Source: Oceaniovalibus guishaninsula JLT2003
GTDB lineage: Bacteria; Pseudomonadota; Alphaproteobacteria; Rhodobacterales; Rhodobacteraceae
Assembly: GCF_000299575.1 (NCBI RefSeq)
Contig: NZ_AMGO01000021.1
Span: 124,001 to 188,000, forward strand
DNA length: 64,000 nucleotides
Reading direction: 5' to 3'
Position 1 is the first letter of the stretch. The number at the start of each line of letters is the position of its first letter. The notes below the pieces were generated by a model. It made no database searches. It saw only the letters and a list, made by a program, of their open reading frames with translations, and was not told the DNA's origin. This document shows positions 29,123 to 59,940 of this stretch, piece after piece. The position numbers and the translations under genes were made by a program.

Positions 29123-29236
29123 GGCGGCGCGCCGTCCTAGCCGACCTTGCGCTGCGTGTCGATCACCCATGCGCGGGGGTTGCCCCGGCGCGCGGCGGCG
29201 GGAATAATGCCCCGAAGCCCGCCGCAAGGAGACCCC

Positions 29237-30646
29237 ATGATCGTCCCCGTCCTTCTGTCCGGCGGCTCGGGCACGCGGCTATGGCCGCTGTCGCGCAAAT
29301 CCTATCCCAAGCAATTCGCCAGACTGACCGGCGAGGGGACGCTGTTCCAGGCATCCGTGACGCGGCTTACCGGACCAGCCTTCGCGCCGCCTATCATCGT
29401 CACCGGGTCCGACTTCCGCTTCATCGTCACCGAACAATTGGCCGATGCCGGCATCGACCCCGGCGCCATCCTGATCGAGCCCGAGGCGCGCAACACTGCC
29501 CCCGCCGTTCTGGCCGCCGCCCTCTGGCTGGAAAAGACGCAACCGGGCGCGCTGATGCTGGTGGCGCCGTCCGATCACGTCATCGCCGATGCCGACGCCT
29601 TCTGCCGCGCGGTCGAGGCGGGCATTCCTGCTGCCCGCGAAGGCCGCCTGGTCACTCTGGGCATCACGCCGGACCGCCCCGAAACGGGCTATGGCTATCT
29701 CGAACTCGACGGCCAGCCCGGCAACGGCCCCGTGCCGCTGCGCCGTTTCGTCGAAAAGCCCGACCTCGACACCGCACGCGCGATGCTCGACGCCGGCACC
29801 TATCTCTGGAACGCCGGCATCTTCCTGTTCCGCGCCGACGCCATCGTCGCCGCCTTCCGCGAACACGCGCCCGCCCTGATCGACCCCGTAACGCAGGCGG
29901 TCGAACGCGCGCGCCCCGATCTGGGCTTCCTGCGCCTCGACGTCGATACGTGGAAAGAGGCCGAGGATATCTCGATCGACTTCGCGGTGATGGAAAAGGC
30001 CGCCAACCTCTCCGTCGTCCCCTTCCCCGGCGGCTGGTCGGATCTGGGCGGCTGGGACGCCGTCTGGCGCGAGATGGATCGCGACGGCACCGGCACCGCG
30101 GTCTCGGGCCACGCCACCGCCATCGACTGCACCGACACCCTGCTGCGCAGCGAGGATTCGCGCCTGGAACTGGTCGGGATCGGCCTGACCGACGTGATCG
30201 CCGTGGCCATGCCCGACGCCGTGCTGGTCGCCCACGCCTCGCGCGCGCAGGACGTCAAGAACGCCGTCACCGCGCTGAAAGGCAAGGCCGCCAAGCAGGC
30301 GACGGCCTTTCCGGTCGATCACCGGCCCTGGGGCTGGTTCGAAAGCCTGGTCATCTCCGACCGCTTCCAGGTCAAGCGCATCGTCGTGCATCCGGGGGCC
30401 GCGCTGTCGCTGCAATCGCATCACCACAGGTCGGAACATTGGATCGTGGTGCGCGGCACCGCCCGCGTCACCGTCAACGACGATGTCGCCCTGCTGACCG
30501 AGAACCAATCGATCTATATCCCCCTGGGCGCGGTGCACCGGATGGAAAACCCCGGCAAGGTCGATATGGTCCTGATCGAGGTCCAGACAGGCCCCTACCT
30601 GGGCGAGGACGACATCGTGCGCTACGAAGACATCTATGCCCGCTGA
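29237..30646 (+). CDS. manC: mannose-1-phosphate guanylyltransferase / mannose-6-phosphate isomerase
   Basis: Bifunctional type II enzyme making GDP-mannose and interconverting mannose-6-P and fructose-6-P, for surface polysaccharides. The 469-residue protein has the nucleotidyltransferase domain (1-about 340) with LSGGSGTRLWPLSRKSYPKQF near the N-terminus and FVEKP (about 171-175) for metal and substrate binding. A cupin isomerase domain follows (about 345-465), with QSHHHRSEHWIVVRGTA holding the metal histidines. AAGGAG precedes ATG 29237. Phosphomannomutase, the partner step, is encoded at 44269. Confidence 0.96.
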   Translation: MIVPVLLSGGSGTRLWPLSRKSYPKQFARLTGEGTLFQASVTRLTGPAFAPPIIVTGSDFRFIVTEQLADAGIDPGAILIEPEARNTAPAVLAAALWLEKTQPGALMLVAPSDHVIADADAFCRAVEAGIPAAREGRLVTLGITPDRPETGYGYLELDGQPGNGPVPLRRFVEKPDLDTARAMLDAGTYLWNAGIFLFRADAIVAAFREHAPALIDPVTQAVERARPDLGFLRLDVDTWKEAEDISIDFAVMEKAANLSVVPFPGGWSDLGGWDAVWREMDRDGTGTAVSGHATAIDCTDTLLRSEDSRLELVGIGLTDVIAVAMPDAVLVAHASRAQDVKNAVTALKGKAAKQATAFPVDHRPWGWFESLVISDRFQVKRIVVHPGAALSLQSHHHRSEHWIVVRGTARVTVNDDVALLTENQSIYIPLGAVHRMENPGKVDMVLIEVQTGPYLGEDDIVRYEDIYAR

Positions 30647-30652
30647 CGGCCC

Positions 30653-31846
30653 TCAATCGGGCGCGGTCAGGCAGTAGAACGCCAGCGACGAATAGATGAA
30701 CCGCGTGCTCGCGATCGGGGTCGAAGGGCGCAGCGCCATGATCAGCAGCCCGTCCTTGGGCACGTCATAGCCGATGGCCAGATCGACGACATACATCGCC
30801 GTGCCGGGAATCGGCACGCCGTCGCGCGACAGGATCTCGGTGCGCGCGTAATCGTTGCCCCAGAAATCGCCGTTCGCCCCGGTCTGGTGATAGACCCGCA
30901 CGTCGAAGGCCGACAGATCGGGCTGGTTCGCCCGCATCACCCCGCGCAGCGCCACGATCCGCGATCCCCTGCGCACGAACGGTCCCAGATCGACGAAGCG
31001 CGATGTGGGCTCGCCCGTCTTGGGGCCGTAATTCTGGTTATAGGTCTCGGCCCCGTGGCCCGAATTGTCCGAGAGGCCCGCCCATTGCCCGTTGGCCGCG
31101 CATTGCCACTTGCCGGGAATATGCAGCACCTGCGACACCCGCGCGCCCGATGGAAACCGCGCCGCACCGGACGCGCGGTCGATCCGCAGGCTTTCGCGAT
31201 AGGTGCCGGAATCGTCGGCGACCTTGATGCCGAAATCGTCCCGCCCCAGCAGCCCCATCAGCGCGCGCGGCGCATAGGCGGTCTTGAACGTCAGCGACGC
31301 GTCGTCGCCCGCGGCGGCCTTGTTCACCGCGATGTCGAATCCGCCATCGGATGTCAGCAGCGCGTTGGTGCCGTGAACCGCCAGCCGGTTCGTCGCGTCC
31401 CAGGCCGTGCCGATCCCCAGCCCCGGCACGTTCTGCAAATCGAGCGCGCCACCCGCGCCGCCCCCGCCCGCGCCGCCGCCCGTGCCCCCGTTCCCCGCAT
31501 CGCCCATCGCCAGCACCTCCCACACGCCGTTCTTGCGCACCCGCAATTGCGCGCCTTCGGTATCCCAGCCGATCCAGCCGTCGGCGGGCGCGATGAACCG
31601 CCAGCCGTTCGGCCCCCATGTCGCCAGCCTGCCGCCCTGCCCGGCCCATTCCGCCGAAGGGGCCGCGCCCAGAGCATAGGTCGCGCCCGGCAGCGGATCC
31701 GCGGGCGGGGCCGCAAGGTCGAAACCCGCGATGCTCAGTTGCACCACGGTATCCAGCGCCAGCACCGCCTCGTTATGGGTGACGTGCTTTTGCGCCTGCG
31801 ACGGCTGAATCAGCGGCAGGTCGAGCCGGGGCGAGGTGTCGGTCAT
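30653..31846 (-). CDS. DUF2793-domain phage/GTA-fibre-like protein
   Basis: 397-residue protein with an N-terminal DUF2793 domain (about 5-110: a PLIQPSQAQKHVTHNEAV segment, then a WGWIGWDTE-like beta region). A flexible glycine-rich linker (about 115-134) joins it to a beta-rich C-terminal region of about 260 residues, containing WQCAANGQWAGL and ending in FIYSSLAFYCLTAPD. DUF2793 occurs in phage and gene-transfer-agent tail or head-fibre proteins. There is no signal peptide. The start is ATG 31846; the frame stays open to 31978. No capsid, terminase or tail gene is adjacent. Its site within polysaccharide genes suggests a glycan-binding fibre, which is inference. Confidence 0.75.
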   Translation of the reverse strand: MTDTSPRLDLPLIQPSQAQKHVTHNEAVLALDTVVQLSIAGFDLAAPPADPLPGATYALGAAPSAEWAGQGGRLATWGPNGWRFIAPADGWIGWDTEGAQLRVRKNGVWEVLAMGDAGNGGTGGGAGGGGAGGALDLQNVPGLGIGTAWDATNRLAVHGTNALLTSDGGFDIAVNKAAAGDDASLTFKTAYAPRALMGLLGRDDFGIKVADDSGTYRESLRIDRASGAARFPSGARVSQVLHIPGKWQCAANGQWAGLSDNSGHGAETYNQNYGPKTGEPTSRFVDLGPFVRRGSRIVALRGVMRANQPDLSAFDVRVYHQTGANGDFWGNDYARTEILSRDGVPIPGTAMYVVDLAIGYDVPKDGLLIMALRPSTPIASTRFIYSSLAFYCLTAPD

Positions 31847-31998
31847 GGGGCGCGCTCCTGTTGGATGGATCGTGCGGCGTTCTACGCGGCGATGATGACC
31901 GAACCCCTGCACCGCCGCGCGTTGCGGCGCGCCTTCGCGCAACGCCCTTGCCCTCGGGGCCGCGATCTGGTCAGGCATCCCCGTTAACGGAGGGCGGC

Positions 31999-33009
31999 AT
32001 GAACAACATCGCAGGCAGGCTGACGGCCATCGTCGTCACCCACGAACGGCTGGACCAGCTGCGCGTCACGCTCGAAAGCCTGCTGGCCGCGCCCGCCGAC
32101 CTGCTACAGGCGGTGGTGGTGGTCGATAACGCGTCGCAGGACGGCACCCCCGCCTGGCTGGCCGCGCAGGACGATCCACGCCTGATCGTGCATCGCTGCG
32201 ACCGCAATGTCGGCGGCGCCGGCGGGTTCGAGGCCGGCATGCGTCTGGTCGTCGCCCGGCTCGATCCCGACTGGATCGTGGTGATGGACGATGACGGCCG
32301 CCCCGCGCCCGGCGCCATCGCCGCTTTCCATGCCGCGCCGCGCGATGCCCGCACCGCCTATGCTGCCGCCGTGCGCTATCCGGGCGGCGCGATCTGCGAA
32401 ATGAACCGCCCCGGCCTCAACCCGTTCCGCCGCCCGGCGGCCCTGCTGCGCGCGTTGGCGGGGCGGGGGCGCGACGGCTATCACCTCGATCCGCGCGCCT
32501 ACGACACCGACCGTCTGCACGACATCGACATGGCGTCTTTCGTCGGTCTCTTCGTGCCGCGCGCCGCCATCGAACGCTGCGGCTATCCGCAGGGCGGGCT
32601 GTTCCTTTACGGCGACGACGTGATCTATTCGCTGGGCCTGCGCCGCGCGGGCTTCCGCATCGCCTTCGATCCGGGCCTGCACTTCCAGCACGACTGCACC
32701 ACCTTCGCCGCATCGGACGGCAAGGCGCGGGTCTATCGTCCGCTCTGGAAGGTCTATTACACCTATCGCAACGGCCTGATCATGTATCGCGCCGCCGCCG
32801 GGCCGCTTTTCTGGGGCCTGCTGCCGGTCGTCGCGTTCAAATGGCGCCGCGCCGCCGCCCGCTACGGCGCCGACGCGCCCGCCTATCTGCGGCTGCTGCA
32901 CCGCGCCCTGCGCGACGGCGTCGCCCGCCGCACCGACATGACCCTGGCCGAGGTGCGGGCGCTTGCCGACGCGCCTCAGCGCCAGAAAAGCCCGCCCAGC
33001 ACGTCCTGA
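31999..33009 (+). CDS. GT2-family glycosyltransferase (GlfT1/rhamnosyltransferase-like)
   Basis: Inverting GT-A transferase, 336 residues. The fold starts TAIVVTHERLDQL (about 9-21), followed by VVVDNASQDGT, a RNVGGAGGFEAGM segment (about 69-81) typical of galactofuranosyl and rhamnosyl transferases, and the metal-binding VMDDDG (95-100). A catalytic-region segment LFLYGDDVIYSLGLRRAG lies near 205. AGGG precedes ATG 31999. The last 55 codons lie in copy 1 of a 187-bp tandem duplication; a second copy of this tail follows the stop. Ancestrally it probably overlapped the convergent PBP gene. Confidence 0.85.
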   Translation: MNNIAGRLTAIVVTHERLDQLRVTLESLLAAPADLLQAVVVVDNASQDGTPAWLAAQDDPRLIVHRCDRNVGGAGGFEAGMRLVVARLDPDWIVVMDDDGRPAPGAIAAFHAAPRDARTAYAAAVRYPGGAICEMNRPGLNPFRRPAALLRALAGRGRDGYHLDPRAYDTDRLHDIDMASFVGLFVPRAAIERCGYPQGGLFLYGDDVIYSLGLRRAGFRIAFDPGLHFQHDCTTFAASDGKARVYRPLWKVYYTYRNGLIMYRAAAGPLFWGLLPVVAFKWRRAAARYGADAPAYLRLLHRALRDGVARRTDMTLAEVRALADAPQRQKSPPSTS

Positions 33010-33029
33010 AGCAGCCTCTCGGCCGCGTC
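32843..33029. repeat. 187-bp tandem direct repeat, copy 1
   Basis: First copy of an imperfect tandem duplication with period 187 bp; the second copy abuts it with no spacer. Four mismatches were found between copies. It holds the true 3' end of the GT2 gene on the plus strand and, on the minus strand, a duplicate of the C-terminal codons of the penicillin-binding protein gene. Confidence 0.93.
32976..33029 (-). pseudogene. duplicated 3' fragment of the PBP1A gene
   Basis: Minus-strand copy of the last 17 codons plus stop of the penicillin-binding protein gene, carried in repeat copy 1. It reads DAAERLLQDVLGGLFWR then stop, versus GLFGR in the intact gene. It has no start or expression signal of its own and is a by-product of the 187-bp duplication. 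Confidence 0.85.
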
Positions 33030-33196
33030 GGCGCCGCGCCGCCGCGCGCTACGGCGCCGACGCGCCCGCTTATCTGCGGCTGCTGCACCGCGCCCTGCGC
33101 GACGGCGTCGCCCGCCGCACCGACATGACGCTGGCCGAGGTGCGGGCGCTTGCCGACGCGCCTCAGCGCCCGAAAAGCCCGCCCAGCACGTCCTGA
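33030..33196 (+). pseudogene. duplicated 3' fragment of the GT2 gene
   Basis: Plus-strand copy of about the last 55 codons of the glycosyltransferase gene at 31999, still open to an in-frame stop at 33196 (ending RPKSPPSTS, versus RQKSPPSTS in the intact gene). It overlaps the PBP1A 3' end by 34 bases, which shows how the two genes met before the duplication. It is not expected to be translated. Confidence 0.85.
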
Positions 33197-33216
33197 AGCA
33201 GCCTCTCGGCCGCGTC
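33030..33216. repeat. 187-bp tandem direct repeat, copy 2
   Basis: Second copy of the tandem duplication. It contains the true 3' end of the penicillin-binding protein gene (minus strand, stop at 33163) and a vestigial copy of the GT2 3' end on the plus strand. The boundary GGCGCC is shared with copy 1, and the identity stops at 33216-33218. Confidence 0.93.
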
Positions 33217-35352
33217 GGGGAACGATTCGCCGCGCGCCGGCACACCGCCCGACTGCGCCACCGCCCCCCCGCCGCCATAGACGGGGGCCGCCGCATAGGG
33301 CTGCGCGTGTTGCATGGCGGGCGCGCGCGGGCCCGCCATCGGCAGCGGCCGCGCCGGCAGCCCCTCGCTGATGCGCGACATCGCTTCTTGCCAGATCTCC
33401 GCCGGCAGGCCGCCGCCCGTCACGCCCTTCAGCGGCGTGTTGTCGTCATAGCCCATCCACACCCCCGCCACGTAATCGGCGGTGAACCCCACGAACCACG
33501 CATCCCGCGACGCCTGCGTCGTGCCGGTCTTGCCCGCCGCCTCGCGTCCCGGTAGCCGCGCGCGCTGCCCGGTTCCCGCCTCGATCACCCGGCTCATCAT
33601 CCAGGTCAGCTGCTGCGCCGCGTCCTGCGAGATCACCCGCTCGCCCAGGCCCCCCGTCTGGCCGATCAGCGGCGTGTCGTTGCCCTTCAGCCGCAGCTCG
33701 ACCAGGCCGTAGGGCTCGACCGACGATCCGCCGTTCAGGATCCCCGCATAGGCGCCCGTCATCTCCAGCAGCGTCGATTCGGACGCGCCCAGCGCCAGGG
33801 CAGGCCCCGCCGCCAGATCCGAATCGATCCCGAAATCCGACGCCACCTTGCGCACGTTCTCGCGGCCCACCGCTTCGGACACGCGCACGGCGGCGGTGTT
33901 GATGCTGTGCTCCAGCGCCTCGGTCAGCGTGATCTCGCCGCGGTATTCGCCGGTATAGTTGCGCGGCGACCACGGGCCCGATCCGGGGATGTTCAGCGTC
34001 AGCGGCGCGTCCATCACCCGGTCGTTGGGGCTATAGCCCAGCTCCAGCGCCGCGGCATAGACGAAGGGCTTGAACGCCGATCCGGTCTGCCGCTTGGCCA
34101 TGATGGCGCGGTTGAACTGCCCCGCCACGCCCTTGAACTTGCGCCCCCCCACCATCGCGCGCACCGCGCCGTCGGCGCTCATCACCACGATGGCGGCCTG
34201 CGCCTTGCTGCCCTCGCGCACCTTGGCGTCGAAGATGTAGTCCAGCGCGCTTTCCGCCGCCCGCTGGATGCGCGGATCGAAGGTGGTCCGCAGGATCACG
34301 TCCTCGGTGGTCTTGCGCGTCAGGAAATCGGGCGCGTCCGTCATCACCCAGTCGGCGAAATAGCCGCCCGCCCGCGCCTCGGCCGCCGCCGAAAGCTCAG
34401 CCGGATGCGCGCGCGCCTCGCGCACCTCCTCGGGGGTCAGATAGCCCTCGCGCTCCATCAGGCCGATGATCACCGATGCGCGGTCCTGGCTGCGTTGCAG
34501 ATCGTTGGTCGGCGCATAGCGCGTGGGCGCCACCAGCAGCCCGGCCAGCATCGCGCCCTCGGCCGGCGTGACCTGGTTGGCGGACTTGCCGAAATAGCGC
34601 TGCGCCGCCGCCTCGAACCCGCGCGATCCGGCCCCAAGGAACGCCCGGTTCAGATAGATCGTCAGGATCTCGTTCTTGGAATACTTGGCTTCCATCGCCA
34701 TCGCATAGACGGCTTCCTTGACCTTGCGCCAAAGCGATCCCTCGCGGCAATCGGCCTCGTATTCCGCTTCGGTCTCCCAGACCGCCGGATCGTAGGGCAC
34801 GCCGAGGCACAGCAGCTTGGCGGTCTGCTGGGTGATCGTCGATCCGCCGTTGCCCGACAGCGGCCCGCGCCCTTCGCGCAGGTTGATCGCCACCGCGCTG
34901 GCCACGCCGCGCGGCGACACGCCGAAATGGCGATAGAACCGGCGATCCTCGGTGGCGATGACGGCATTGCGCAGGTTGGGCGAAATGGTCGCGGCGTCGA
35001 TCTGGCCGCCGAACTGTTCGCCGCGCCAGGCGAAGATCGCGCCGTCGCGGTCCAGCATCGTCACCGATCCGCGCGCCCGCCCGTCCAGCAATTCCTCGAC
35101 CGGGGGCAGCGTCGTATAGAAATAATAGACCGCGACCCCCAGGATCAGCGCCAGCACCGCCGCCCCGCGCACCGCCAGCCCGCCCACCAGCCGGAACGCC
35201 CAGCGGATCACCGCGCCGATCCATGCCAGCGGCCCGCGCCGCCGCCCGCCGCGCCGCACCGCCGGCCTGCGGCGGGGGGCGGGTCTGGCCGGGGCCTTGC
35301 GCGTGCGTTTCGGCGCCACGAGGGGCGATCTGCCTTTGCCGGAGGTGGCCAT
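33163..35352 (-). CDS. mrcA: bifunctional penicillin-binding protein 1A
   Basis: Class A PBP that polymerises and cross-links peptidoglycan at the cytoplasmic membrane. The 729-residue protein has a basic Arg/Pro-rich cytoplasmic tail (1-45) and one membrane anchor (about 58-80). The GT51 transglycosylase domain follows, with catalytic Glu135 in ATEDRRFYRHFG and GGSTITQQ at 169-176. The transpeptidase domain has Ser425/Lys428 (TGSAFKPF), SxN at 483-485 and KTG at 608-610. A low-complexity Pro/Gly tail (665-710) precedes a conserved-looking C-terminal helix. The start is ATG 35352. Its end lies in repeat copy 2 and would overlap the GT2 gene but for the duplication. Confidence 0.95.
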   Translation of the reverse strand: MATSGKGRSPLVAPKRTRKAPARPAPRRRPAVRRGGRRRGPLAWIGAVIRWAFRLVGGLAVRGAAVLALILGVAVYYFYTTLPPVEELLDGRARGSVTMLDRDGAIFAWRGEQFGGQIDAATISPNLRNAVIATEDRRFYRHFGVSPRGVASAVAINLREGRGPLSGNGGSTITQQTAKLLCLGVPYDPAVWETEAEYEADCREGSLWRKVKEAVYAMAMEAKYSKNEILTIYLNRAFLGAGSRGFEAAAQRYFGKSANQVTPAEGAMLAGLLVAPTRYAPTNDLQRSQDRASVIIGLMEREGYLTPEEVREARAHPAELSAAAEARAGGYFADWVMTDAPDFLTRKTTEDVILRTTFDPRIQRAAESALDYIFDAKVREGSKAQAAIVVMSADGAVRAMVGGRKFKGVAGQFNRAIMAKRQTGSAFKPFVYAAALELGYSPNDRVMDAPLTLNIPGSGPWSPRNYTGEYRGEITLTEALEHSINTAAVRVSEAVGRENVRKVASDFGIDSDLAAGPALALGASESTLLEMTGAYAGILNGGSSVEPYGLVELRLKGNDTPLIGQTGGLGERVISQDAAQQLTWMMSRVIEAGTGQRARLPGREAAGKTGTTQASRDAWFVGFTADYVAGVWMGYDDNTPLKGVTGGGLPAEIWQEAMSRISEGLPARPLPMAGPRAPAMQHAQPYAAAPVYGGGGAVAQSGGVPARGESFPDAAERLLQDVLGGLFGR

Positions 35353-35566
35353 CTGCGGGACCTTGCCTGATCTGCTCTCGGCGACCCTACACCGAACCCG
35401 CGCGATATAGAAACGCCGTTCGGAACCGCAAGCGATTCGTCCCTGCCCAAAAACGCGTCGATTTGCCCGAAATGCAGGCAGGACCGTCTGAAATTCGCCG
35501 CAGCGCAGCGCGATCAGCGACCGCAGCCTTGCGCGGGATGGCCCGCTGCCGGTCCGCTGCGACGGT

Positions 35567-35583
35567 CCGGCACCGCTTGCCGG
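35567..35583. promoter_or_regulatory. inverted repeat upstream of amtB
   Basis: Perfect 6-bp arms CCGGCA / TGCCGG around a 5-base loop, ending 26 bases before the amtB ATG. It could be an operator, or an mRNA hairpin in the leader. No regulator is assigned. It is not a correct sigma-54 promoter (spacing is wrong). Confidence 0.25.
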
Positions 35584-35608
35584 CATCACGCCAAAGGGAA
35601 TATTGAGA

Positions 35609-36922
<1,314 letters not shown>

Positions 36923-39298: not shown

Positions 39299-40168
39299 AT
39301 GACCGATATGCCCCTTCACCCGGAAATCCAGCCGCGCATCGTCCGCATCGGGACGATAGACGTGGGCGGTGACGCGCCCATCGCCCTGATCACCGGGCCG
39401 TGCCAACTGGAAAGCCTTGATCATGCGCGGATGATGGCGGACCGAATCTCCACGGCCTGCGCGCCCACGGGGACGCGGTTCATCTTCAAGGCCAGTTACG
39501 ACAAGGCGAACCGATCCTCCATCGGCACCCGGCGCGGTCTGGGGATCGAGGCGGGGCTGGAGATTCTGGGCCGCATCCGCGAGGAATTCGACTGTCCGGT
39601 CCTCACCGACGTGCATCTTCCCGATCATTGCGCGCGCGCGGCCGAGGTTTGCGACGTTCTGCAAATCCCCGCCTTCCTGTCGCGCCAGACCGACCTGCTA
39701 CTGGCGGCCGGCGAAACCGGGGCGGCGGTCAACGTCAAGAAAGGGCAGTTCCTGGCGCCCTGGGACATGGCGAATGTCGCCGCCAAGATCGAAAGCACCG
39801 GCAATGCGCGCATCCTGCTCTGCGAACGCGGCACGTCGTTCGGCTATAACACCCTTGTCAGCGATTTCAGGGCCTTGCCGATCATGGCGCGGACGGGCTG
39901 GCCGGTGGTCTTCGACGCGACCCACTCGGTGCAGCAGCCGGGCGGCATAGGCGCGACCAGCGGCGGGCAGCGCGAATTCGCGCCTGTTCTCGCCACGGCG
40001 GCCTGCGCAATCGGCGTTGCCGCGCTGTTCATCGAAACGCATCAGGATCCCGACCGCGCGCCGTCCGACGGGCCGAACATGATCCCGGTGGACCGGATGG
40101 AGCCGCTGATCGCCCGCCTGCGCGCCTTCGACGATCTGGCCAAGGGACGGACGGGGGCGCAGACCTGA
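39299..40168 (+). CDS. kdsA: 3-deoxy-8-phosphooctulonate synthase
   Basis: Condenses arabinose-5-phosphate with phosphoenolpyruvate to KDO-8-phosphate, the precursor of KDO in LPS and capsules. The 289-residue protein has the family segments ITGPCQLES (about 31-39), FKASYDKANRSS (about 62-73), LTDVHLPD and NVKKGQFLAPWDM (about 141-153), and DATHSVQQPGG near 200. It sits among nucleotide-sugar genes rather than with lpx or kdsB genes, and is followed by rfbC after one base. KDO may therefore be used for the capsule here. Confidence 0.96.
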   Translation: MTDMPLHPEIQPRIVRIGTIDVGGDAPIALITGPCQLESLDHARMMADRISTACAPTGTRFIFKASYDKANRSSIGTRRGLGIEAGLEILGRIREEFDCPVLTDVHLPDHCARAAEVCDVLQIPAFLSRQTDLLLAAGETGAAVNVKKGQFLAPWDMANVAAKIESTGNARILLCERGTSFGYNTLVSDFRALPIMARTGWPVVFDATHSVQQPGGIGATSGGQREFAPVLATAACAIGVAALFIETHQDPDRAPSDGPNMIPVDRMEPLIARLRAFDDLAKGRTGAQT

Positions 40169-40169
40169 C

Positions 40170-40736
40170 ATGCAGATCGAACAGACCGCACTGGACGGCG
40201 TGCTGATCCTGACGCCGCGCCGCCACGGCGATGCGCGCGGCTGGTTCGCCGAAAGCTGGAACCGCGCGACGCTGGCCGAACACGGCATCACGACGGATTG
40301 GGTGCAGGACAACCATTCCTTCTCGGCCCGCGCGGGAACGGTGCGGGGTCTGCACTACCAATCGCCGCCTGCCGCCCAGGCCAAGCTGGTCCGCTGCGCG
40401 CGCGGCGCACTGACCGATGTGGCGGTCGATTTCCGTTCCGGCAGCGCGACGTTCGGCCGATGGGTCGCTGTCGATCTGACCGAGGAGGACGGCCGCCAAC
40501 TGCTGATCCCCCAAGGGTTCCTGCACGGTTTCGTCACCCGCAAGGATGCGACCGAGATCGCCTATAAATGCTCGGCCCCCTATTCGCCGCGGCATGACGG
40601 CGCGGTGCGCTGGGACGATCCGGCCATCGGCATCGACTGGCGCATCGACCCCGCCGATGCCATCCTGTCGGCCAAGGACGCGGCGGCCCCGCTGCTGAAC
40701 GAGGTGGAAAGCCCCTTCGTCACCGCCGATGCGTAG
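40170..40736 (+). CDS. rfbC: dTDP-4-dehydrorhamnose 3,5-epimerase
   Basis: Cupin-fold epimerase of the RmlC family, 188 residues. The catalytic histidine lies in TVRGLHYQ (about 58-65), supported by DNHSFSA, a DVAVDFR segment and [20 protein letters not shown] near the C-terminus with the family tyrosine. The other dTDP-rhamnose genes (rfbA, rfbB, rfbD) are absent from the window, so it may act on a related 4-keto sugar. Its last 8 bases overlap the next gene. Confidence 0.92.
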
Positions 40737-41745
40737 TGCGTTCATCACCGGGACGGCCGGATTCGTCGGATTCCATCTGGCCCGGCGCCTTCTTGACGAT
40801 GGCTGGAACGTCGCCGGCTTCGACGGGATGACCGACTATTACGATGTCACGCTAAAACGGCGGCGGCACGAAGCGTTGTCGCGATTTGACCGGTTCACCG
40901 CGACCGAGGCGTTGCTGGAGGATCGCGCGGCCCTGGCCCGTGCCGCCGACGCTGCGCGACCCGACGTGATCGTCCATCTGGCCGCGCAGGCCGGCGTGCG
41001 CTACAGCCTCGACAATCCGCGCGCTTATGTGGAAACGAACGTCACCGGCACCTTCAACGTGATGGAGATCGCCCGCGACCATGCGGTCCGCCACCTTCTG
41101 ATGGCCTCGACCAGTTCCGTCTATGGCGCCAATACCGATCTTCCCTATGCCGAAACCGACAAGGCCGACCACCCGCTGACGATCTATGCCGCGACCAAGA
41201 AGGCGAACGAGGCGATGGGTCATGCCTGGTCGCATCTGCATGACCTGCCGACCACGATGTTTCGCTTCTTCACGGTCTACGGCCCGTGGGGACGGCCCGA
41301 CATGGCCTATTTCAAGTTCGCCCGCGCCATCCTGACGGGGGAACCCATCGACATCTACAATCACGGCAAGATGTGGCGCGACTTCACCTATGTGGACGAT
41401 CTGGTGCGCGGTATCGCGCTGCTGATCGACGCCGTTCCGCCCCTGCCCGGACAGCGCGACGGGGCGTCTGTCGCGGGCGACACCCTGTCGCCGGTCGCCC
41501 CGTGGCGGGTGGTGAATATCGGCAACTCGGACAAGGTGCGTTTGATGGATTTCGTCGCCGCCATCGAAGAGGCGACGGGCCGCACGGCCATCCGCAACAT
41601 GATGCCGATGCAGCAGGGCGACGTTCCCGCCACATGGGCCGATGCCGCGCTGCTGGCGGCGCTGACCGGATACCGCCCGCAGACCGATTTCCGCGATGGC
41701 GTCGCCCGGTTCGTCGCGTGGTATCGCGACTATTACGGGCTGTGA
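40729..41745 (+). CDS. UDP-glucuronate 4-epimerase-like NAD-dependent epimerase
   Basis: Extended SDR sugar epimerase, 338 residues. The Rossmann motif [10 protein letters not shown] (about 8-17), STSSVYG (catalytic Ser region, about 125-131), and YAATKKANE (Tyr and Lys, about 148-156) are present. The [14 protein letters not shown] segment near 182 is characteristic of UDP-glucuronate epimerases, converting UDP-GlcA to UDP-GalA. ugd, which makes UDP-GlcA, is the convergent neighbour 4 bases away, which fits this substrate. The ATG lies inside the end of rfbC. Confidence 0.9.
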
Positions 41746-41749
41746 CGGA

Positions 41750-43072
41750 TCAGGCCGCGTTCATCGCGGCCCGCCCGACGGGGACATAGGCGTCGAACCC
41801 CGCATCCCGCGCGTCGTCCACCGAATAGATGTTGCGCAGATCGGCCATGTGCCGCGTCGCCATTTCGCCGGCGATACGGCCCAGATCCAGCGCGCGGAAC
41901 TCGTTCCATTCGGTCAGGATCACCAACAGATCGGCGTCCTTCGCGGCGGCATAGGCATCGTCGCACCAGGTTACGCCGGGCAGCAGCGCCTCGCCCTCGT
42001 GGCGGCCCTGGGGATCGGTGACGCGCACCTTCGCGCCGCCGCCCACGAGGGCCGGAACAATGGTCAGCGACGGTGCATCGCGCATGTCGTCGGTGTTGGG
42101 CTTGAACGTCACGCCCAGCACCGCGACCGTCTTGCCATTGAACGAACCGCCGCAAAGATCGCGCAGCTTGTCGATCATCCGGCGCTTGGCGTCCTCGTTC
42201 ACCTCGATCACCGTCTCGGTGATGCGCATGGGGCGGCCATGTTCCTGACCGATCCGGGCCAAAGCCTTGGTATCCTTGGGAAAGCACGACCCGCCATAGC
42301 CGGGGCCGGCATGCAGGAACTTGTTGCCGATACGGTTGTCCAGCCCGATGCCGCGGCTGACCTGCTTGATGTCCGCCCCGACCGCCTCGCACAGTGCCGC
42401 AATCTCGTTGATGAAGGTGATCTTGGTCGCCAGAAAGGCGTTCGCGGCGTATTTGATCATCTCGGCCGATTCCAGATCGGTCACGAGGATCGGAAATTCG
42501 CGAAGGAAAAGAGGGCGATAGATGTCGGCCATGATCTGGCCGGCGCGTTCGGTCTGGACGCCGACGACGACGCGGTCGGGGCGCATGAAATCGTCAATGG
42601 CGGCCCCTTCGCGCAGGAATTCGGGGTTGCTGGCCACGTCGAAGTCCAGGGTCGGATTCGCGGCGCGGATCACCTCGGCCACCTTGCGATTGGTGCCGAC
42701 GGGAACGGTGGATTTCGTAACGATAACAACGGGTCCCTCGACAGCGCGGGCGACTTCGTCGGCGGCGGCCATGACGTAGGTCAGGTCGGCGTGGCCGTCA
42801 CCTCGGCGGGTGGGGGTGCCGACGGCGATGAAGACGGCCTGCGCGCCCTTGAGGGCGGCGGCCAGGTCGGTGGTGAACCGAAGCCGCCCGGCATCGACGT
42901 TCCGCGACATCAGATCCTCGAGTCCCGGTTCGTAGATCGGCACCTCGCCCGCGTTCAAGCGTTTGATCTTGCTTGCATCCTTGTCCACGCAGACGACATC
43001 GTGGCCGAAATCGGAAAAGCAGATACCAGAGACGAGGCCGACATAGCCGGTCCCGATCATGACGATGCGCAT
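41750..43072 (-). CDS. ugd: UDP-glucose 6-dehydrogenase
   Basis: Oxidises UDP-glucose to UDP-glucuronate with two NAD+. The 440-residue protein has the N-terminal NAD motif GTGYVGLVSG (about 7-16), the KSTVPVGT segment (about 120-127), catalytic Cys in GYGGSCFPKDT (about 256-266) and the NEFRALD region near the C-terminus. The ATG start at 43072 leaves a 110-base gap to the upstream gene, containing four 11-bp-phased repeats. It supplies UDP-GlcA for the convergent 4-epimerase and the capsule. Confidence 0.97.
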   Translation of the reverse strand: MRIVMIGTGYVGLVSGICFSDFGHDVVCVDKDASKIKRLNAGEVPIYEPGLEDLMSRNVDAGRLRFTTDLAAALKGAQAVFIAVGTPTRRGDGHADLTYVMAAADEVARAVEGPVVIVTKSTVPVGTNRKVAEVIRAANPTLDFDVASNPEFLREGAAIDDFMRPDRVVVGVQTERAGQIMADIYRPLFLREFPILVTDLESAEMIKYAANAFLATKITFINEIAALCEAVGADIKQVSRGIGLDNRIGNKFLHAGPGYGGSCFPKDTKALARIGQEHGRPMRITETVIEVNEDAKRRMIDKLRDLCGGSFNGKTVAVLGVTFKPNTDDMRDAPSLTIVPALVGGGAKVRVTDPQGRHEGEALLPGVTWCDDAYAAAKDADLLVILTEWNEFRALDLGRIAGEMATRHMADLRNIYSVDDARDAGFDAYVPVGRAAMNAA

Positions 43073-43128
43073 CGAAAACGTCCTTGTTCCGTTGTGGCGG
43101 CGGCGGCTGTGGCCACCCTGTTTCGGGG

Positions 43129-43168
43129 CATCGGATAAACGTAAGAGAAGCGTAAGACCAGCGTAGGA
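43129..43168 (-). promoter_or_regulatory. 11-bp-phased TCnnACG direct repeats upstream of ugd
   Basis: Read on the minus strand, TCCTACG, TCTTACG and TCTTACG are spaced exactly 11 bases apart (plus-strand 43162-43168, 43151-43157, 43140-43146). A fourth, weaker unit TCCGATG lies at 43129-43135. The array ends 56 bases before the ugd start. It matches in motif, period and unit number the array before the SDR gene at 36931, suggesting one response regulator controls both. Confidence 0.55.
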
Positions 43169-43182
43169 GCGGCCGCGCGGTT

Positions 43183-44130
43183 TCAGCGGATCGCCTTGCG
43201 CCGCAAAAGACCGCCAAGCCGTCCGTCGATGACCGCCAGCCCCGTACCGATCAGCGCCAGTCCGGCGATCTGCATGGCACCCAGCGATTCGCCCAGAAGG
43301 GTCACGCCGAGCGTTATGGCCGAGACGGGAATGAGGAACGTCACCAGCAACAGGTTCGTCGCGCCCGCGATCCCCAGAAGCCGGAAGTAGAGGATATAGG
43401 CCAACGCGGTCGAAAGGACCGCCAGCCCGACAATCGCCGCGACGGTCGTTGCCGAAGGCGCGGCCAGCGTCCAGGGGCGATCGACGATCAGCGCGGCGGG
43501 GCCGAGGATCAGGGTCGCGCCCGTCACCTGCCCCGCGGCCACGACGACCGGATCGACACCCAGCCGTCCGAATCGCCGCCCGAAGACCCCCGCCACGGCA
43601 TAGGACAGCGCGCCGCCCAGACAGGCGATCTGCGCCAGCACGTTGTCTTGCAGACCCGCCAGCGCACCGGGGCCGATCACCGCCACCACGCCCCCGAGGC
43701 CGAGCGCCATCCCCACCGCCTTGCGCCGGACTAGCCGTTCATCGGCCAGGAACAGTGCCGCGACGGCCATCGTGAAAAGCGGCGTCGTCGCGTTGAGGAT
43801 CGAAGCAAGGCCCGAGCCGATCGTCTGCTGGCCCCAGACGATCAGGCCGAAGGGAACCACATTGTTGAGAAGCCCCATAACGAGGAAGGCCAGCCATACC
43901 GACGCGTCACGCGGCAGCGGGCGGCCCAGAACCGCGACGGCAGCCCAGAGGACGGATGCCGCAAGCGAAACCCGCAGCAGCACGATGGTCAGCGTGGGCA
44001 GTTCGCGTACCGCCAGTTCGACGAAGAAGAACGATCCGCCCCAGAGGACCGACAGGACGACAAGCATCGCACAGGCGCCGGATCCCATCGGGCCGATGGC
44101 GGGGGCGGGTGGCTGGAGGGTTGCTGTCAT
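43183..44130 (-). CDS. EamA/DMT-family transporter
   Basis: Drug/metabolite transporter of the ten-helix EamA type, 315 residues with two EamA repeats (about 22-145 and 160-295). The first helix contains LSVLWGGSFFFVELAVREL, typical of the family, and a VPFGLIVWGQQTIGSGLASIL segment closes helix 4. The start is ATG 44130, with AAAGG eight bases upstream; a GTG at 44139 lies too close to that site. Substrate unknown. It lies upstream of ugd on the same strand and is divergent from manB. Confidence 0.85.
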   Translation of the reverse strand: MTATLQPPAPAIGPMGSGACAMLVVLSVLWGGSFFFVELAVRELPTLTIVLLRVSLAASVLWAAVAVLGRPLPRDASVWLAFLVMGLLNNVVPFGLIVWGQQTIGSGLASILNATTPLFTMAVAALFLADERLVRRKAVGMALGLGGVVAVIGPGALAGLQDNVLAQIACLGGALSYAVAGVFGRRFGRLGVDPVVVAAGQVTGATLILGPAALIVDRPWTLAAPSATTVAAIVGLAVLSTALAYILYFRLLGIAGATNLLLVTFLIPVSAITLGVTLLGESLGAMQIAGLALIGTGLAVIDGRLGGLLRRKAIR

Positions 44131-44268
44131 GGCGGGCACCTTTCGTCGGTTTCGGCCCAGCTTCGCCAGCGCCCTGCCGATACGCGACCCGAAAGCCGCG
44201 CATAGGGCGCTTTACGGCGCGGCGGCGATGGGACAGATTCATGCTTTGCCCTGCCCCCGGAGCGCGCC

Positions 44269-45648
44269 ATGCCCCCAAAGTTCGGAACCAGCGGCCTGCG
44301 CGGTCTGGCGGTGGAATTGACCGACAGCCTGATCGCCGCGCATGTGCGGGCCTTCGCGTCGGTCTGCGACAGCGGCGGCACGGTCTGCATCGGGCGCGAC
44401 CTGCGCGACAGTTCGCCCCGCATCGCCGCCGCCGTCGGTCAGGCCGCGCGGAAGGCGGGGCTGGACACGGTCGATTGCGGCCTGGTGCCGACGCCCGCGC
44501 TGGCGATGGCGGCGCTGGATGCGGGGGCCGGCGCGATCATGGTCACGGGTAGCCATATCCCGGCGGACCGCAACGGGCTGAAATTCTATACCCGCGCAGG
44601 CGAGATCACGAAGCAGGAGGAAGCGGCGATCACCGCGGCGCTGTCGGGCACCCCGCCCGCCGCTGACGGGACAGGCAGGGGATCCGACGATCCGCAGGCG
44701 GGTGCGCGGTTCGCGGCACGGTATGTCGATGCCTTCGGGGCGGGGGCGTTGACGGGCCGGCGCATTGGCATCTTCAGCCATTCTGCGGTGGGCCGCGACC
44801 TGCTGGCGGACATGCTGCGCGGTCTGGGGGCTGTGACGGTGGAGCTTGGCCGGTCCGACACGTTCATCCCCGTCGATACCGAAGCGGTGGATCCGGCGGC
44901 CAGGGCGCAACTGGCCGCGTGGACGTCCGAACACGATCTGCATGCGATCGCATCGACGGACGGCGACAGCGACCGCCCCATGCTGTGCGACGAAAAGGGC
45001 CGGATGATCGCCGGCGACGTCCTGGGACAGATCGTGGCCGAGACGCTGGGCGCGCGCACGGTGGTGACGCCGGTATCGTCGAATACGGGGGCCGAACGGA
45101 AGGGCTTCGATGCCGTCATCCGCACCCGGATCGGATCGCCCCATGTCATCGCCGCGATGCAGGACGCGATGCGCGACGGCGCCCTGAACGTCGCGGGATA
45201 CGAGGCGAATGGCGGCTTCCTGCTGGGATTCGCGGCCGATGCGCCGGGCGGAACGCTGTCGCCGCTGATGACGCGGGACAGCTTTCTTCCCATCGTCGCG
45301 GCGGGCGACGCCCCGCTGTCGCAGCGCGTCGGTGCCGAGCCTGCGCGCTTTACCGCGACGGACCGGGTGCAGGACGTGCCAACCAACCGGTCGCTGGCGC
45401 TGGTGGCGCGGCTGACGGACGACGGCGCCGCACGGTCGCAATTCGCCGGACGGGCCGGGCTGGCGGGGGGCATCCGGGCGGATGTCACCGACGGATTGCG
45501 TCTGACGGACGGGGACGGGAATATCATCCATCTGCGCCCCTCGGGCAACGCGCCGGAATTGCGCGTCTATGCCGAGGCGGACACGCCCGCCCGCGCCGAG
45601 ACCCTGCTGGCGCAGGGGATGGGGGCGGTGCGCGGCCTTGTCAGCTAG
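44269..45648 (+). CDS. manB: phosphomannomutase/phosphoglucomutase
   Basis: Alpha-D-phosphohexomutase making mannose-1-phosphate (and perhaps glucose-1-phosphate), 459 residues. The phosphoserine is Ser95 in TGSHIPADRNG, the metal loop is DGDSDRPM (Asp231, Asp233, Asp235), the sugar-binding loop is EANGGF (near 310), and the phosphate-binding loop RPSGNAPELR lies near 425. The N-terminal FGTSGLRG is intact. It provides the substrate of ManC (29237). It is transcribed alone, divergent from the EamA gene. Confidence 0.92.
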   Translation: MPPKFGTSGLRGLAVELTDSLIAAHVRAFASVCDSGGTVCIGRDLRDSSPRIAAAVGQAARKAGLDTVDCGLVPTPALAMAALDAGAGAIMVTGSHIPADRNGLKFYTRAGEITKQEEAAITAALSGTPPAADGTGRGSDDPQAGARFAARYVDAFGAGALTGRRIGIFSHSAVGRDLLADMLRGLGAVTVELGRSDTFIPVDTEAVDPAARAQLAAWTSEHDLHAIASTDGDSDRPMLCDEKGRMIAGDVLGQIVAETLGARTVVTPVSSNTGAERKGFDAVIRTRIGSPHVIAAMQDAMRDGALNVAGYEANGGFLLGFAADAPGGTLSPLMTRDSFLPIVAAGDAPLSQRVGAEPARFTATDRVQDVPTNRSLALVARLTDDGAARSQFAGRAGLAGGIRADVTDGLRLTDGDGNIIHLRPSGNAPELRVYAEADTPARAETLLAQGMGAVRGLVS

Positions 45649-45746
45649 GGCCGGGGCGGCGGCCGCCGGTTGCCATCGCGGGGCCGTTCTGAAATATCGG
45701 CGCGCACGAAGGACCGCGGACGCGGCATAACGGGATTCGGAACGCC

Positions 45747-46763
45747 ATGCTGCGCACGCTTTACCTGCATATCGGCGCCCATCGCACGGCGACCAGTTCG
45801 ACCCAGCGGTTCCTGCACAACAACGCGCCCGCGCTGCTGAAACAGGGATACCTCTATCCGTTCGGCGTGCGGCGGCACATGGACCTGATGAACGAGGTCT
45901 TCGCCGGCAAGCGCAGCGCGGCGCAGGTGGCGGGGGCGCTGAACGATGCCGCGCGCGGGCAGGACGTGCATACCGCCATCCTGAGCGACGAGGACGTGGC
46001 GATGCGGCGCGACCTGTCGCCGCTGGCCGCGCTGCGCCGGCATTTCGATGTCCGCGTCGTCTATGCCATGCGGCGGCAGGATACCTGGCTGGAAAGCTGG
46101 TATCTGCAGAACATCAAGTGGCAATGGAACGACAGCCTGGCGCATGTCACCTTTCCCGAGTTCCTGGCCCGGTCCGAGGAATTTCACTGGATCCATTACG
46201 ACCGCTTCCTTGCGCATGTCGCGGGGCTGTTCGGCGCGGAAAACATCGTGCCGCTGGTCTTCGAGAAGGGGCAGATGCCGGACGGGCCGGTCCTGGCCTT
46301 CTGCCGGGCGGTGGGGCTGCGCGACATGAGCGAGGCGCGCAAGGTGCCGCATGTCAATTCCAGCCGGTCGCCGCAGATGGCCGAGTTCATGCGATTGCTG
46401 CCGCTGGACCGCGCCGCGACGGATGTGCGCAACGCGCTGGCTTCGGCCTGCGAGACGGTGGATCGCCGCAGCCTGGGCCACAAGGGCAAGCAGAGCGAGC
46501 TGCTGATGGAGCCGGGACTGCGGCGCGCGGTGATGGCGCGTTATGCGGACGGCAACGCGGCGGTAGCGCGGCATTATCTGGACCGCGACGCGCTGTTTCT
46601 GGACCCGCTGCCGCCCGAGGACGCGCCGCTGGCCAGCCTGACCCTGCCCGCCGATCCCGAAGTGCTGATGGCGCGCTTCGTGGCACCGCTGTTCGAGGCG
46701 CTGATCGAGAAGGGCGCGGTCGTCAACCCGCGCAAGGCGGGCGCCGCAAAAGACCGCGGCTGA
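45747..46763 (+). CDS. sulfotransferase-like P-loop protein
   Basis: 338-residue protein with an N-terminal LYLHIGAHRTATSST segment (about 5-19), which resembles the 5'-phosphosulfate (PAPS) loop of bacterial sulfotransferases (hIGxxKTGTT-type), here with Arg in place of the usual Lys. A VVYAMRRQDTWLESWYLQN segment (about 103-121) matches the 3'-phosphate-binding region. No signal peptide is present. Its stop shares one base with the start of the GlfT2-like gene (TGATG), so it probably modifies the same glycan. The assignment is by motif and context; other P-loop roles are possible. Confidence 0.65.
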   Translation: MLRTLYLHIGAHRTATSSTQRFLHNNAPALLKQGYLYPFGVRRHMDLMNEVFAGKRSAAQVAGALNDAARGQDVHTAILSDEDVAMRRDLSPLAALRRHFDVRVVYAMRRQDTWLESWYLQNIKWQWNDSLAHVTFPEFLARSEEFHWIHYDRFLAHVAGLFGAENIVPLVFEKGQMPDGPVLAFCRAVGLRDMSEARKVPHVNSSRSPQMAEFMRLLPLDRAATDVRNALASACETVDRRSLGHKGKQSELLMEPGLRRAVMARYADGNAAVARHYLDRDALFLDPLPPEDAPLASLTLPADPEVLMARFVAPLFEALIEKGAVVNPRKAGAAKDRG

Positions 46764-48589
46764 TGCCCCATCCGTTGCAGGCGCAGGACGGTCTTCATAC
46801 GGTTCAGCGGCTGATCCGCCCCGATCCCGCCCTGCCCGCGCCGCCCCGCCTTTTCATGCAGACCGACGGGGACGGGTTCGTGCTGGAACCGGGCGGGTTT
46901 CTGGGGACGAACGGGTATTCCAACTATTTCGCGCTGGGCGACTGGCAGGATCGCTGCGGGCTGGACGATCTGACGGTCGTGCTGCGCGGCAGCGGACGGG
47001 TCGAGGTCGCGGTGGTGCTGTCCCAGCCCGCGGGGGCGGTGCGGCTATGGGCGGGGACGGTCGATCTGGATGCGGATGCGGGATGGCGTCATCGCATCGA
47101 CGGGATCGGTCCGGCGACGCGGCGGGGATTGCTGCATGTCGAGATCCGGGCGCTGACGGCGGTGCGGATCGACGCGATCGACTGGCGGACGGCGCGGGCG
47201 CCGCAGCGGCAGCCGGACCTCGTCGCGTCGATCACCACGTTCGGGCGACCCGAGGCGGTGCAGCGATCCGTGGCGCGGTTCAGGGATTACCTGGCCGCGT
47301 CGCCCCTGCGGGGGCATGTCCGGCTTCAGGTCGTCGATAACGGGCATGACAGCGCCCGGCCCTCGGGGGTCGGGGCGGGCCGCGGCGTCACAGTGATCGC
47401 CAACCGCAACCTGGGCGGGGCCGGCGGGTTCGCGCGCGGTCTGATCGAGGCGCGCGCGGCGGGGGCCAGCCATGTGCTGTTCATGGACGACGACGCCGCG
47501 ATCCACATGGACAGCATCGAGCGGACTTGGACGTTTCTGGCCTGGGCGACGAACCCCGATACGGCGGTGGCCGGCGCGATGATCGACGCGGGCAAGCCGG
47601 GCATTCTTTGGGAAAACGGCGCGACCTTCGATGGCGGATGCCACCCCATCGACAACGGGGCCGACCTGCGCGATCCCGACGAGGCGGCCGAGGCGATCCG
47701 GGGCGGGTTCGGGGCCAATCCGCCCCATCTTTACGGCGGATGGTGGTTCTTCGCCTTTCCGGTTCGGCCGGTGCGCCACCTGCCCTATCCGTTCTTCGTG
47801 CGCGGCGACGATGTCAGCTTTTCGCTGGTCCACGATTTCGATATCGCGCGCCCGCCGGGCGTGGTGTCGTTTCAGGACGGATTCACCGGCAAGGAAAGCC
47901 CGCTGGTCTGGTATCTCGACCTGCGCAGCCACCTTGCGCATCACCTGTCGCTGCCGAACCTCGACAGCGGCGCGCGGACGCTGCTGCGGCTGCCGGTCTG
48001 GTTCTTCGCCCGGAACCTGATCCGCCTGCATTACGAGACGCTGGCGGCGATCAATCTGGCGGTCGAGGATGTGATCGACGGCCCGATGCGGATGGCCGAG
48101 GATGCCGACATGGCGCGCCGCCGCCCGCAACTGGCCGCGCTGCGGCATGCCGAGGCGTGGAAACCGTCGACGGACCCCCTGCCGCAGGACCGCATCGCGC
48201 TGAACCCCGACAATCCTGCCGCGCGCTGGCTGATGAAGCTGACGGCGAACGGCCATCTGCTGCCGTTCTTCGGCAGGTTCGGCAACCGGATCACGCTGGA
48301 CGCGGCGGACCGGGGCGCGGTGCGGCGGATGTGGGGGGCCGCGCGCATCACCGTCCTGAGCGGCGACGGGCAGCATTACACCGTCGCCCATTCCAAGGCG
48401 GCGGCCTGGCGGCAGGGCCGGCGCATGGCGCGCAATCTGTGGCGGCTTTATCGGCGGCGGGCCGATCTGGTCGCGCAATGGCGCGCGGCCTACGATCCGC
48501 TGACATCGCAGGCTTACTGGGACCGGGCCCTGGACCGCGAGGGAATGCAGCCCGAAGACATGCGACGATCCACCCGGATCGCCGACTGA
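46763..48589 (+). CDS. GlfT2-like galactofuranosyltransferase
   Basis: Large GT2-type transferase, 608 residues, with the domain order of mycobacterial GlfT2: an N-terminal beta-barrel-like domain (about 10-145), a GT-A domain (about 150-400) and a C-terminal helical region. Visible are VASITTFGRPE (about 154-164), NRNLGGAGGFARG (about 214-226), the metal motif MDDDA (241-245), an aromatic acceptor segment YGGWWFFAFP (324-333) and the candidate catalytic VRGDDVSFSL (Asp349/Asp350). Together with glf at 50427 this predicts galactofuranose polymer synthesis. It is translationally coupled to the sulfotransferase-like gene. Confidence 0.82.
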   Translation: MPHPLQAQDGLHTVQRLIRPDPALPAPPRLFMQTDGDGFVLEPGGFLGTNGYSNYFALGDWQDRCGLDDLTVVLRGSGRVEVAVVLSQPAGAVRLWAGTVDLDADAGWRHRIDGIGPATRRGLLHVEIRALTAVRIDAIDWRTARAPQRQPDLVASITTFGRPEAVQRSVARFRDYLAASPLRGHVRLQVVDNGHDSARPSGVGAGRGVTVIANRNLGGAGGFARGLIEARAAGASHVLFMDDDAAIHMDSIERTWTFLAWATNPDTAVAGAMIDAGKPGILWENGATFDGGCHPIDNGADLRDPDEAAEAIRGGFGANPPHLYGGWWFFAFPVRPVRHLPYPFFVRGDDVSFSLVHDFDIARPPGVVSFQDGFTGKESPLVWYLDLRSHLAHHLSLPNLDSGARTLLRLPVWFFARNLIRLHYETLAAINLAVEDVIDGPMRMAEDADMARRRPQLAALRHAEAWKPSTDPLPQDRIALNPDNPAARWLMKLTANGHLLPFFGRFGNRITLDAADRGAVRRMWGAARITVLSGDGQHYTVAHSKAAAWRQGRRMARNLWRLYRRRADLVAQWRAAYDPLTSQAYWDRALDREGMQPEDMRRSTRIAD

Positions 48590-48653
48590 CCTGCGACGAT
48601 CCGCCGATGCGGGACCGCGCGCCTTGCCGCCCTGCAAGGGACCGGCGTTAATA

Positions 48654-48680
48654 TCCCGATCCGACCGACCGACATCGGGA
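48654..48680. promoter_or_regulatory. inverted repeat upstream of CAP-RTX gene
   Basis: 7-bp arms TCCCGAT / ATCGGGA separated by 13 bases, 79 bases before the gene start, next to a rare AT-rich patch (GTTAATAT). It could be an operator for a dimeric regulator. No family is assigned. Confidence 0.3.
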
Positions 48681-48758
48681 CGTCACGACAGCGCCCTCAA
48701 ACCGTCCAGATCCGCGGGCATCCATCCCGAAAGGATCGACCCCGGAAGGAGATGACGC

Positions 48759-50417: not shown

Positions 50418-50426
50418 TCGCGTCGC

Positions 50427-51671
<1,245 letters not shown>

Positions 51672-51733
51672 CTATCGCGAAGAAACCGACGCAATGGCGT
51701 CCCCGGTGATTCGAGGTTGGAGGACAGGCCGTC

Positions 51734-53437: not shown

Positions 53438-53442
53438 CAAAG

Positions 53443-53457
53443 GCGGTCAGCGACCGC
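53443..53457. terminator. possible weak bidirectional terminator hairpin
   Basis: GCGGTC / GACCGC arms with a 3-base loop lie at the convergent ends of the serralysin-like and kpsT genes, partly within the kpsT 3' end. On the minus strand it is followed by CTTTGTC, a short T tract only. A weak or factor-assisted terminator is possible. Confidence 0.3.
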
Positions 53458-54112: not shown

Positions 54113-54122
54113 TGGCAGGCCG

Positions 54123-55478: not shown

Positions 55479-55613
55479 TGGCGCCTCGCTTGCGGGCGGT
55501 TTGATCTTTGCCGAAGCAACCTACATAAGCGCAGGCGAAGAAACCAGCCGCCCCGCCGCGTTCGCGTTACGACGGCGCAGCGGCCGCCATCACTTTTGCG
55601 GTAAATCCCCCCC

Positions 55614-56456: not shown

Positions 56457-56486
56457 TCCGGCGCCGCCCGCTGGCCCGCTGGCCCC

Positions 56487-57932: not shown

Positions 57933-57977
57933 GGAAGACTGTCCTTTCGGGTTTCGGTCAATTCAATGGGGCAGCGG

Positions 57978-59788: not shown

Positions 59789-59940
59789 CTTCATCCTATT
59801 CGTTCGGCGGCAAGGCGGCCCCTGCGGCGGCGACGGTAACGTCCCGGTGCGGAAAAGAACATCCCGCCGCCGCCGGTGACAATAGGCGATTGGACACACC
59901 TGCGGCACCCCGTGGCAAGGCGGGCGCGGTCACGGCGCCA

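Follow-up and report, generated by a model that had tools for sequence, protein, structure and literature searches.

Two genes converge on a 187-bp tandem repeat in the window considered here (the whole 64-kb stretch of DNA that was analysed, part of contig C21 in a 2.9-Mb genome of 68 contigs): a glycosyltransferase family 2 gene (GT2) on the plus strand and a gene for a PBP1A-type transglycosylase/transpeptidase (PBP1A) on the minus strand. The features at their joint are the following:

31999-33009, plus strand: GT2 (Pfam PF00535, 4.8e-15); the start is a chosen codon, the longest open reading frame starting at 31861
32843-33029: repeat copy 1, with the GT2 3' end in use and an unused PBP1A 3' end
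32976-33009: 34-bp stretch in which GT2 is antisense to the unused PBP1A end, the trace left by the overlap that arose at the joint
33010-33162: 153-bp spacer between the GT2 and PBP1A stops, from the duplication
33020-33068: inverted repeat with arms 33020-33036 and 33052-33068 (16 of 17 pairs), the first arm crossing the joint between copies 1 and 2
33030-33216: repeat copy 2, with the PBP1A 3' end in use and a second GT2 3' end that lies beyond the reach of GT2
33163-35589, minus strand: PBP1A (PF00912, 3.5e-51; PF00905, 2e-30), with an uncertain upstream start
35603-36922, plus strand: ammonium transporter gene (PF00909, 3.1e-99), the divergent neighbour of PBP1A, which stayed with it

When the window sequence is compared with itself, the two copies measure 187 bp apiece, follow each other with no base between them and are 98% identical, and the match runs two bases (GG) beyond copy 2 (32843-33218 in TRF). 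They differ at four positions, namely 32859/33046 (C in copy 1, G in copy 2), 32883/33070 (C, T), 32943/33130 (C, G) and 32984/33171 (A, C). As adjacent direct copies without a spacer, they form a short tandem duplication. The first-pass annotation had described the same adjacent copies and the same four differences, which both the sequence and TRF confirm, and had correctly placed the 3' ends of both genes in each copy, with GT2 ending at 33009 in copy 1 and PBP1A at 33163 in copy 2, so that neither overlaps the other. Copy 2 is ruled out as an in-frame extension of GT2, since 187 equals 62x3+1 and GT2 stops within copy 1. The TRF score of the repeat is 724, against 115 for the runner-up array in the window, and across contigs C21 and C7, which together make up about 702 kb or 24% of the 2.9-Mb draft, no further tandem array of units longer than 60 bp reaches a score of at least 100. 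With no other such array in these contigs at the threshold used, a repeat-rich genome is ruled out as the background of the duplication. Shorter units do occur: several arrays of 27-bp period lie within 49820-53437, beside the capsule export genes, where an RTX-type nonapeptide repeat protein is also encoded (51734-53437; PF00353). Contig C7 carries a 48-bp array of about two copies at L151:16401-16516 (93% or 81% matches, depending on the TRF row), and the other C7 arrays listed with a unit of at least 45 bp have 76-78% matches.

In a single-copy state, the PBP1A stop at 33163 would move by 187 to 32976 and produce a 34-bp tail-to-tail overlap with GT2 (32976-33009), as the first-pass annotation had calculated; the duplication alone converts this convergent overlap into the 153-bp spacer. 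The differences at 32859/33046, 32883/33070 and 32943/33130 are third-position changes, synonymous in the GT2 frame, while the one at 32984/33171 gives the GT2 tail Gln in copy 1 and Pro in copy 2, and the PBP frame Trp and Gly, respectively, so that the PBP C-terminus reads GLFGR in the used copy 2 and GLFWR in the unused copy 1. A Gly one or two residues before the PBP1A end is present in all 13 other genomes of the genus; by these relatives Gly is ancestral, and thus the change to Trp arose in copy 1, outside the PBP1A end now in use. For 33070, the rare Ala codon GCT (59 of 2667 Ala codons in mechanically chosen open reading frames of the window) suggests a change in copy 2. For the most part, the relatives gave little indication of the direction of change at the three synonymous sites. 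These substitutions had previously been read as a sign that the two genes, once freed from each other, had begun to evolve independently. The spacer is indeed there and the GLFWR/GLFGR difference is real, but independent evolution is weakly indicated, with three of the four differences synonymous in GT2, and Trp is found only in unused copy 1, PBP1A itself being unchanged there.

The neighbourhoods of the two genes in relatives are different from that in the window. PBP1A orthologues are present in all 13 other genomes of the genus, and a close GT2 (61-66% identical) in four of them, never on the contig of PBP1A; for instance, the GT2 of Palleronia sp. LCG004 is located on plasmid NZ_CP136763.1, and the relatives of GT2, kpsM, rfbC and kdsA in that strain are on a 125-kb plasmid. 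When 394 genomes of the family were scanned with 701 bp of junction DNA, the whole stretch was matched in this genome only, and four other genomes were matched on the GT2 side alone; the scan (E ≤1e-20), being a DNA search, is not a sensitive one for distant relatives, the PBP1A side being matched in no other genome. GT2 as such is found at E ≤1e-60 in 69 genomes of the same set, this genome counted. For a wider comparison, the neighbours of GT2 were identified, by matches at E ≤1e-10, in 76 GT2 loci (41 from another search, four stretches from the genus, the 30 of the family set for which a locus was given, one of these being the window's own, and a plasmid record, which is the same place as one of the genus stretches); some genomes may occur in two sets, and the shortest flanks cover a few bases, the longest about 20 kb. 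PBP1A occurs in the fetched flank of none of the 75 other loci. Instead, GT2 is convergent with a kpsM-like permease gene in 44 of the 76, including all four genus loci, and the two stops overlap in 21 of these 44 (by 71 bp in the annotation of Palleronia sp. LCG004). The permease gene lies elsewhere in the stretch in five loci, and none was seen in 27, the window's own locus included. PBP1A has neighbours of its own: the divergent ammonium transporter gene of the window recurs in all 13 genus loci, and a NUDIX gene is convergent with PBP1A in eight (at 57 and 185 bp in two, at 1.7-3.7 kb in six), on the same strand in two and not found within the 20-kb stretch in three. The first-pass annotation had taken GT2 and PBP1A for a formerly overlapping pair. 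A long-standing pair of this kind is not supported: among the genomes searched, the adjacency was seen in this one only, and the fetched flanks of the 75 other GT2 loci contain no PBP1A. The junction, in single or double copy, is in none of the relatives examined, and a close relative with the single-copy 34-bp overlap, which that annotation had proposed as the check, was not found among them.

The former partners of both genes appear to be present further along the window:

55614-56456, plus strand: kpsM-like ABC-2 permease gene, probably the ancestral partner of GT2 (PF01061, 8.9e-17; NF050053 below its cut-off)
56487-57932, minus strand: aldehyde dehydrogenase gene (PF00171, 4.9e-149), within the second breakpoint interval, between kpsM and NUDIX
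57978-58430, minus strand: NUDIX gene (PF00293, 3.2e-24), with an approximate start
57978-59908, minus strand: NUDIX/S41 gene pair

The kpsM-like gene and the NUDIX gene lie 23-25 kb from the GT2/PBP1A joint, on the plus and minus strands, respectively, and reversing about 33.0-56.5 kb brings back both the GT2-kpsM and the PBP1A-NUDIX pairings, as expected of an inversion breakpoint. Since one reversal is enough to restore both, the joint is best read, from sequence and gene order, as one breakpoint of an inversion that is specific to this lineage and about 23.5 kb long, with the second breakpoint probably between 56456 and about 57978. After the reversal, the aldehyde dehydrogenase gene is left over at the right end; it has no match in the 13 PBP1A or the four GT2 stretches of the genus. 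The gene tails allow a closer look at the break itself. In tail alignments, the homology of GT2 with its relatives runs to about ALADAP, close to the codon where the PBP1A stop begins, and the final ~10 residues of GT2 are PBP1A-end antisense, while the conserved tail of PBP1A is intact in the window, as is the C-terminal tail of KpsM (aligned with ten relatives). With GT2 homology ending at the PBP1A end and the other two tails intact, the break falls at the ends of both gene pairs. The 34-bp overlap is thus best explained as a by-product of the rearrangement, with the original GT2 stop removed and the frame left open as far as the next one.

A simple inversion is not free of difficulties. 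NUDIX is not directly adjacent to PBP1A in six of the eight convergent genus loci. GT2 is on another contig or on a plasmid in the other genus genomes, and thus at least one more move is needed. The 5' side of GT2 was rearranged as well, since rfbC, which adjoins GT2 in the four genus loci, lies at 40170 in the window. The capsule and rhamnose genes must have reached the side of the ammonium transporter by a separate step. Upstream of GT2, where the four genus loci have rfbC, the window encodes a DUF2793 protein (30653-31978, minus strand). Rhamnose and capsule genes (manC-like, kdsA, rfbC, kpsT/E/M-like and GT2) occupy 29147-33009 and 39299-56456, and share the contig with the housekeeping genes for PBP1A, the ammonium transporter, the S41 peptidase, iPGM and rsfS. 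When 32501-33700 and 56001-58200 were used as self-BLAST queries against the window, no insertion sequence or long repeat common to both inversion ends was among the matches listed, the best of which, apart from the tandem repeat, extend over at most 49 bases at 78%. A circle that opened between GT2 and kpsM and then inserted was ruled out by reasoning, because PBP1A and the ammonium transporter gene lie between the two ends.

Under the inversion reading, GT2 would originally have stood tail to tail with kpsM, and PBP1A with the NUDIX/S41 pair. The inversion would then have joined GT2 to PBP1A, with loss of the GT2 stop and a run of 34 bp into PBP1A antisense, and a later, single tandem copying of the joint region would have given each gene one complete 3' end and separated them by the 153-bp spacer. 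The repeat itself is a real tandem duplication and looks like a commonplace local copying error beside one end of the older inversion, with an effect that is by default probably neutral. We consider this complete history, an inversion followed by a neutral 187-bp tandem duplication at its left breakpoint, likely through a template switch, to be probable.

The mechanism of the copying step may be read from the new joint. Direct microhomology at the ends of the duplication amounts to 2 bp (GG). In the single-copy unit, the end (178-187) and the start (1-7) are both complementary to the contiguous positions 23-39, so that a strand stalled at the unit end could pair with 23-39, copy seven bases and land on the unit start, which would yield a tandem copy. 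Simulated 187-bp duplications rarely reach the 16-of-17 pairing observed: 2 of 8000 did so in the window with the real site excluded, and 1 of 5100 in the C21 and C7 pieces (5 of 1500 when the joint was GC-rich). Of all 6000 starts in 30-36 kb, 4 attain this pairing: one is a different site, and the other three are the real joint in equivalent positions. Simulations on the single-copy sequence gave 2 of 6000 in the window and 2 of 3000 in 30-36 kb, where the local draws could include the true start. The inverted repeat over the new joint thus goes beyond chance and has the form of a quasipalindrome, although the test was picked after the repeat had been seen, which overstates its strength. Its position across the joint points to replication template switching as the likely copying step. 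In the part of the literature cited here, E. coli provides established cases of template switching at imperfect inverted repeats (PMC7202029), and the process has been proposed as an origin of new hairpins (PMC8794818).

The four differences between the copies might also be older than the repeat, if the copies were joined by exchange between two related alleles, one of which could, for example, have arrived with conspecific DNA. Within the 133 bp that belong to GT2, none of the three differences alters an amino acid, for which P = 0.025 if all of them arose in an unconstrained copy 2, and the codon ACG at 33128-33130 in copy 2 is shared by both relatives with Thr at that position, one of them in the genus. 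However, P rises to a non-significant 0.093 if copy 1 adds synonymous changes, Trp in copy 1 where 13 of 13 relatives have Gly would be odd for a working allele, and the rare GCT in copy 2 resembles a change in an unused copy. There is no firm sign of pre-diverged alleles as the source of the copies, and we regard such an origin as unlikely.

Another alternative concerns the retention of the duplication rather than its origin. At -49.3 kcal/mol, the 75 nt past the GT2 stop now fold more stably than those past the same stop in copy 2, which represent the single-copy context (-24.6 kcal/mol). This fold is the lowest of 59 post-stop regions of mechanically chosen open reading frames in the window, only 4 of 1500 GC-matched 75-mers are as stable, and the plus strand at 33010-33090 has a z of -2.69, with 4 of 200 shuffles equally stable. 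The joint hairpin after the GT2 stop could therefore have been retained because it serves the two convergent genes as a terminator or 3' end. However, no terminator-like site was found in 32700-33400, where a stem is present without the T run of an intrinsic terminator, folding of the minus strand is ordinary (z -1.44; 19 of 200 shuffles equally stable), and the hairpin falls directly out of the repeat geometry. A predicted role of the hairpin as a 3' boundary is possible, but that the duplication was retained for it seems to us quite improbable. The same low standing applies to a more ambitious version, in which one template switch would have repaired the rearrangement scar by doubling the ends of both genes, undone the 34-bp overlap and built a hairpin whose function as a shared 3' boundary keeps the duplication in place; this, too, is quite improbable.

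The two remaining alternatives are weaker still. In the first, an old overlapping GT2-PBP1A pair was parted by the duplication, and selection favoured the free evolution of each gene. The 34-bp overlap does follow from the sequence, and copy 1 did lose the PBP Gly shared by 13 of 13 genus relatives; against this, the adjacency occurs in no other genome examined, the PBP1A end in use is unchanged, the three GT2 differences are synonymous, and GT2 overlaps kpsM in 21 of 44 convergent loci, so such an overlap is tolerated. Gene overlap in any orientation is described as common and highly plastic in bacteria (PMC4161906, in the part cited), and in many relatives GT2 itself shares an overlap with kpsM, so nothing indicates that the 34 bp had to be relieved; we hold this history to be very unlikely. 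An assembly artefact, in which two strain versions of a 187-bp contig overlap were joined unmerged, would suit a draft of 68 contigs and exactly adjacent copies with few mismatches, the form expected of such a joint, but is highly unlikely in view of sequence free of N throughout the window and the C21 and C7 pieces, a site about 157 kb inside a 374-kb contig, an estimated contamination of 0.17%, a longest exact run of 59 bases between the copies, which longer k-mers should resolve, the lack of a second such duplication in about 702 kb, and the fact that one of the versions would encode a PBP tail without the conserved Gly.

Taken alone, the duplication alters no view of GT2 or PBP1A. The locus nevertheless illustrates, on a small scale, how gene ends may be remade after a rearrangement, with a stop lost, an overlap made and the overlap undone again, and the inverted repeat over the joint hints at a testable template-switch route to short tandem duplications without direct homology. 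A literature search combining convergent overlapping genes, bacterial genomes and duplication returned no match, although publications may exist, and, judged by titles and the openings of abstracts, no publication was recognised as this combination.

Each component can nevertheless be related to known systems. Spontaneous short tandem duplications are of a known kind in bacterial chromosomes, and the present case resembles them in its two adjacent direct copies of less than 200 bp with 2 bp of direct microhomology, but differs in sitting on an older rearrangement joint and in carrying both 3' ends of a convergent pair. Bidirectional intrinsic terminators are known between convergent genes; like them, this locus has a strong GC-rich hairpin between tail-to-tail stops, but unlike them no stem followed by a T run was found here. 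The overlap that the joint created is comparable to the convergent overlaps by stop loss in the part of PMC2174442 cited here, in that GT2 continues beyond the site of its former stop as far as the first one in PBP1A antisense; in contrast to that route, a rearrangement joint rather than a point change would have removed the GT2 stop, and duplication would then have undone the overlap. Finally, the copying step, if it was a template switch, would be akin to the events at the E. coli thyA hotspot and the lacZ quasipalindrome (PMC7202029), which likewise take place at an imperfect inverted repeat, with a stalled strand copying from a different stretch and thereby making the inverted repeat more perfect. 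In the part of that source cited here, the quasipalindrome reporters correct a 4-bp change within one hairpin, whereas the outcome in this genome would be a tandem duplication of 187 bp.
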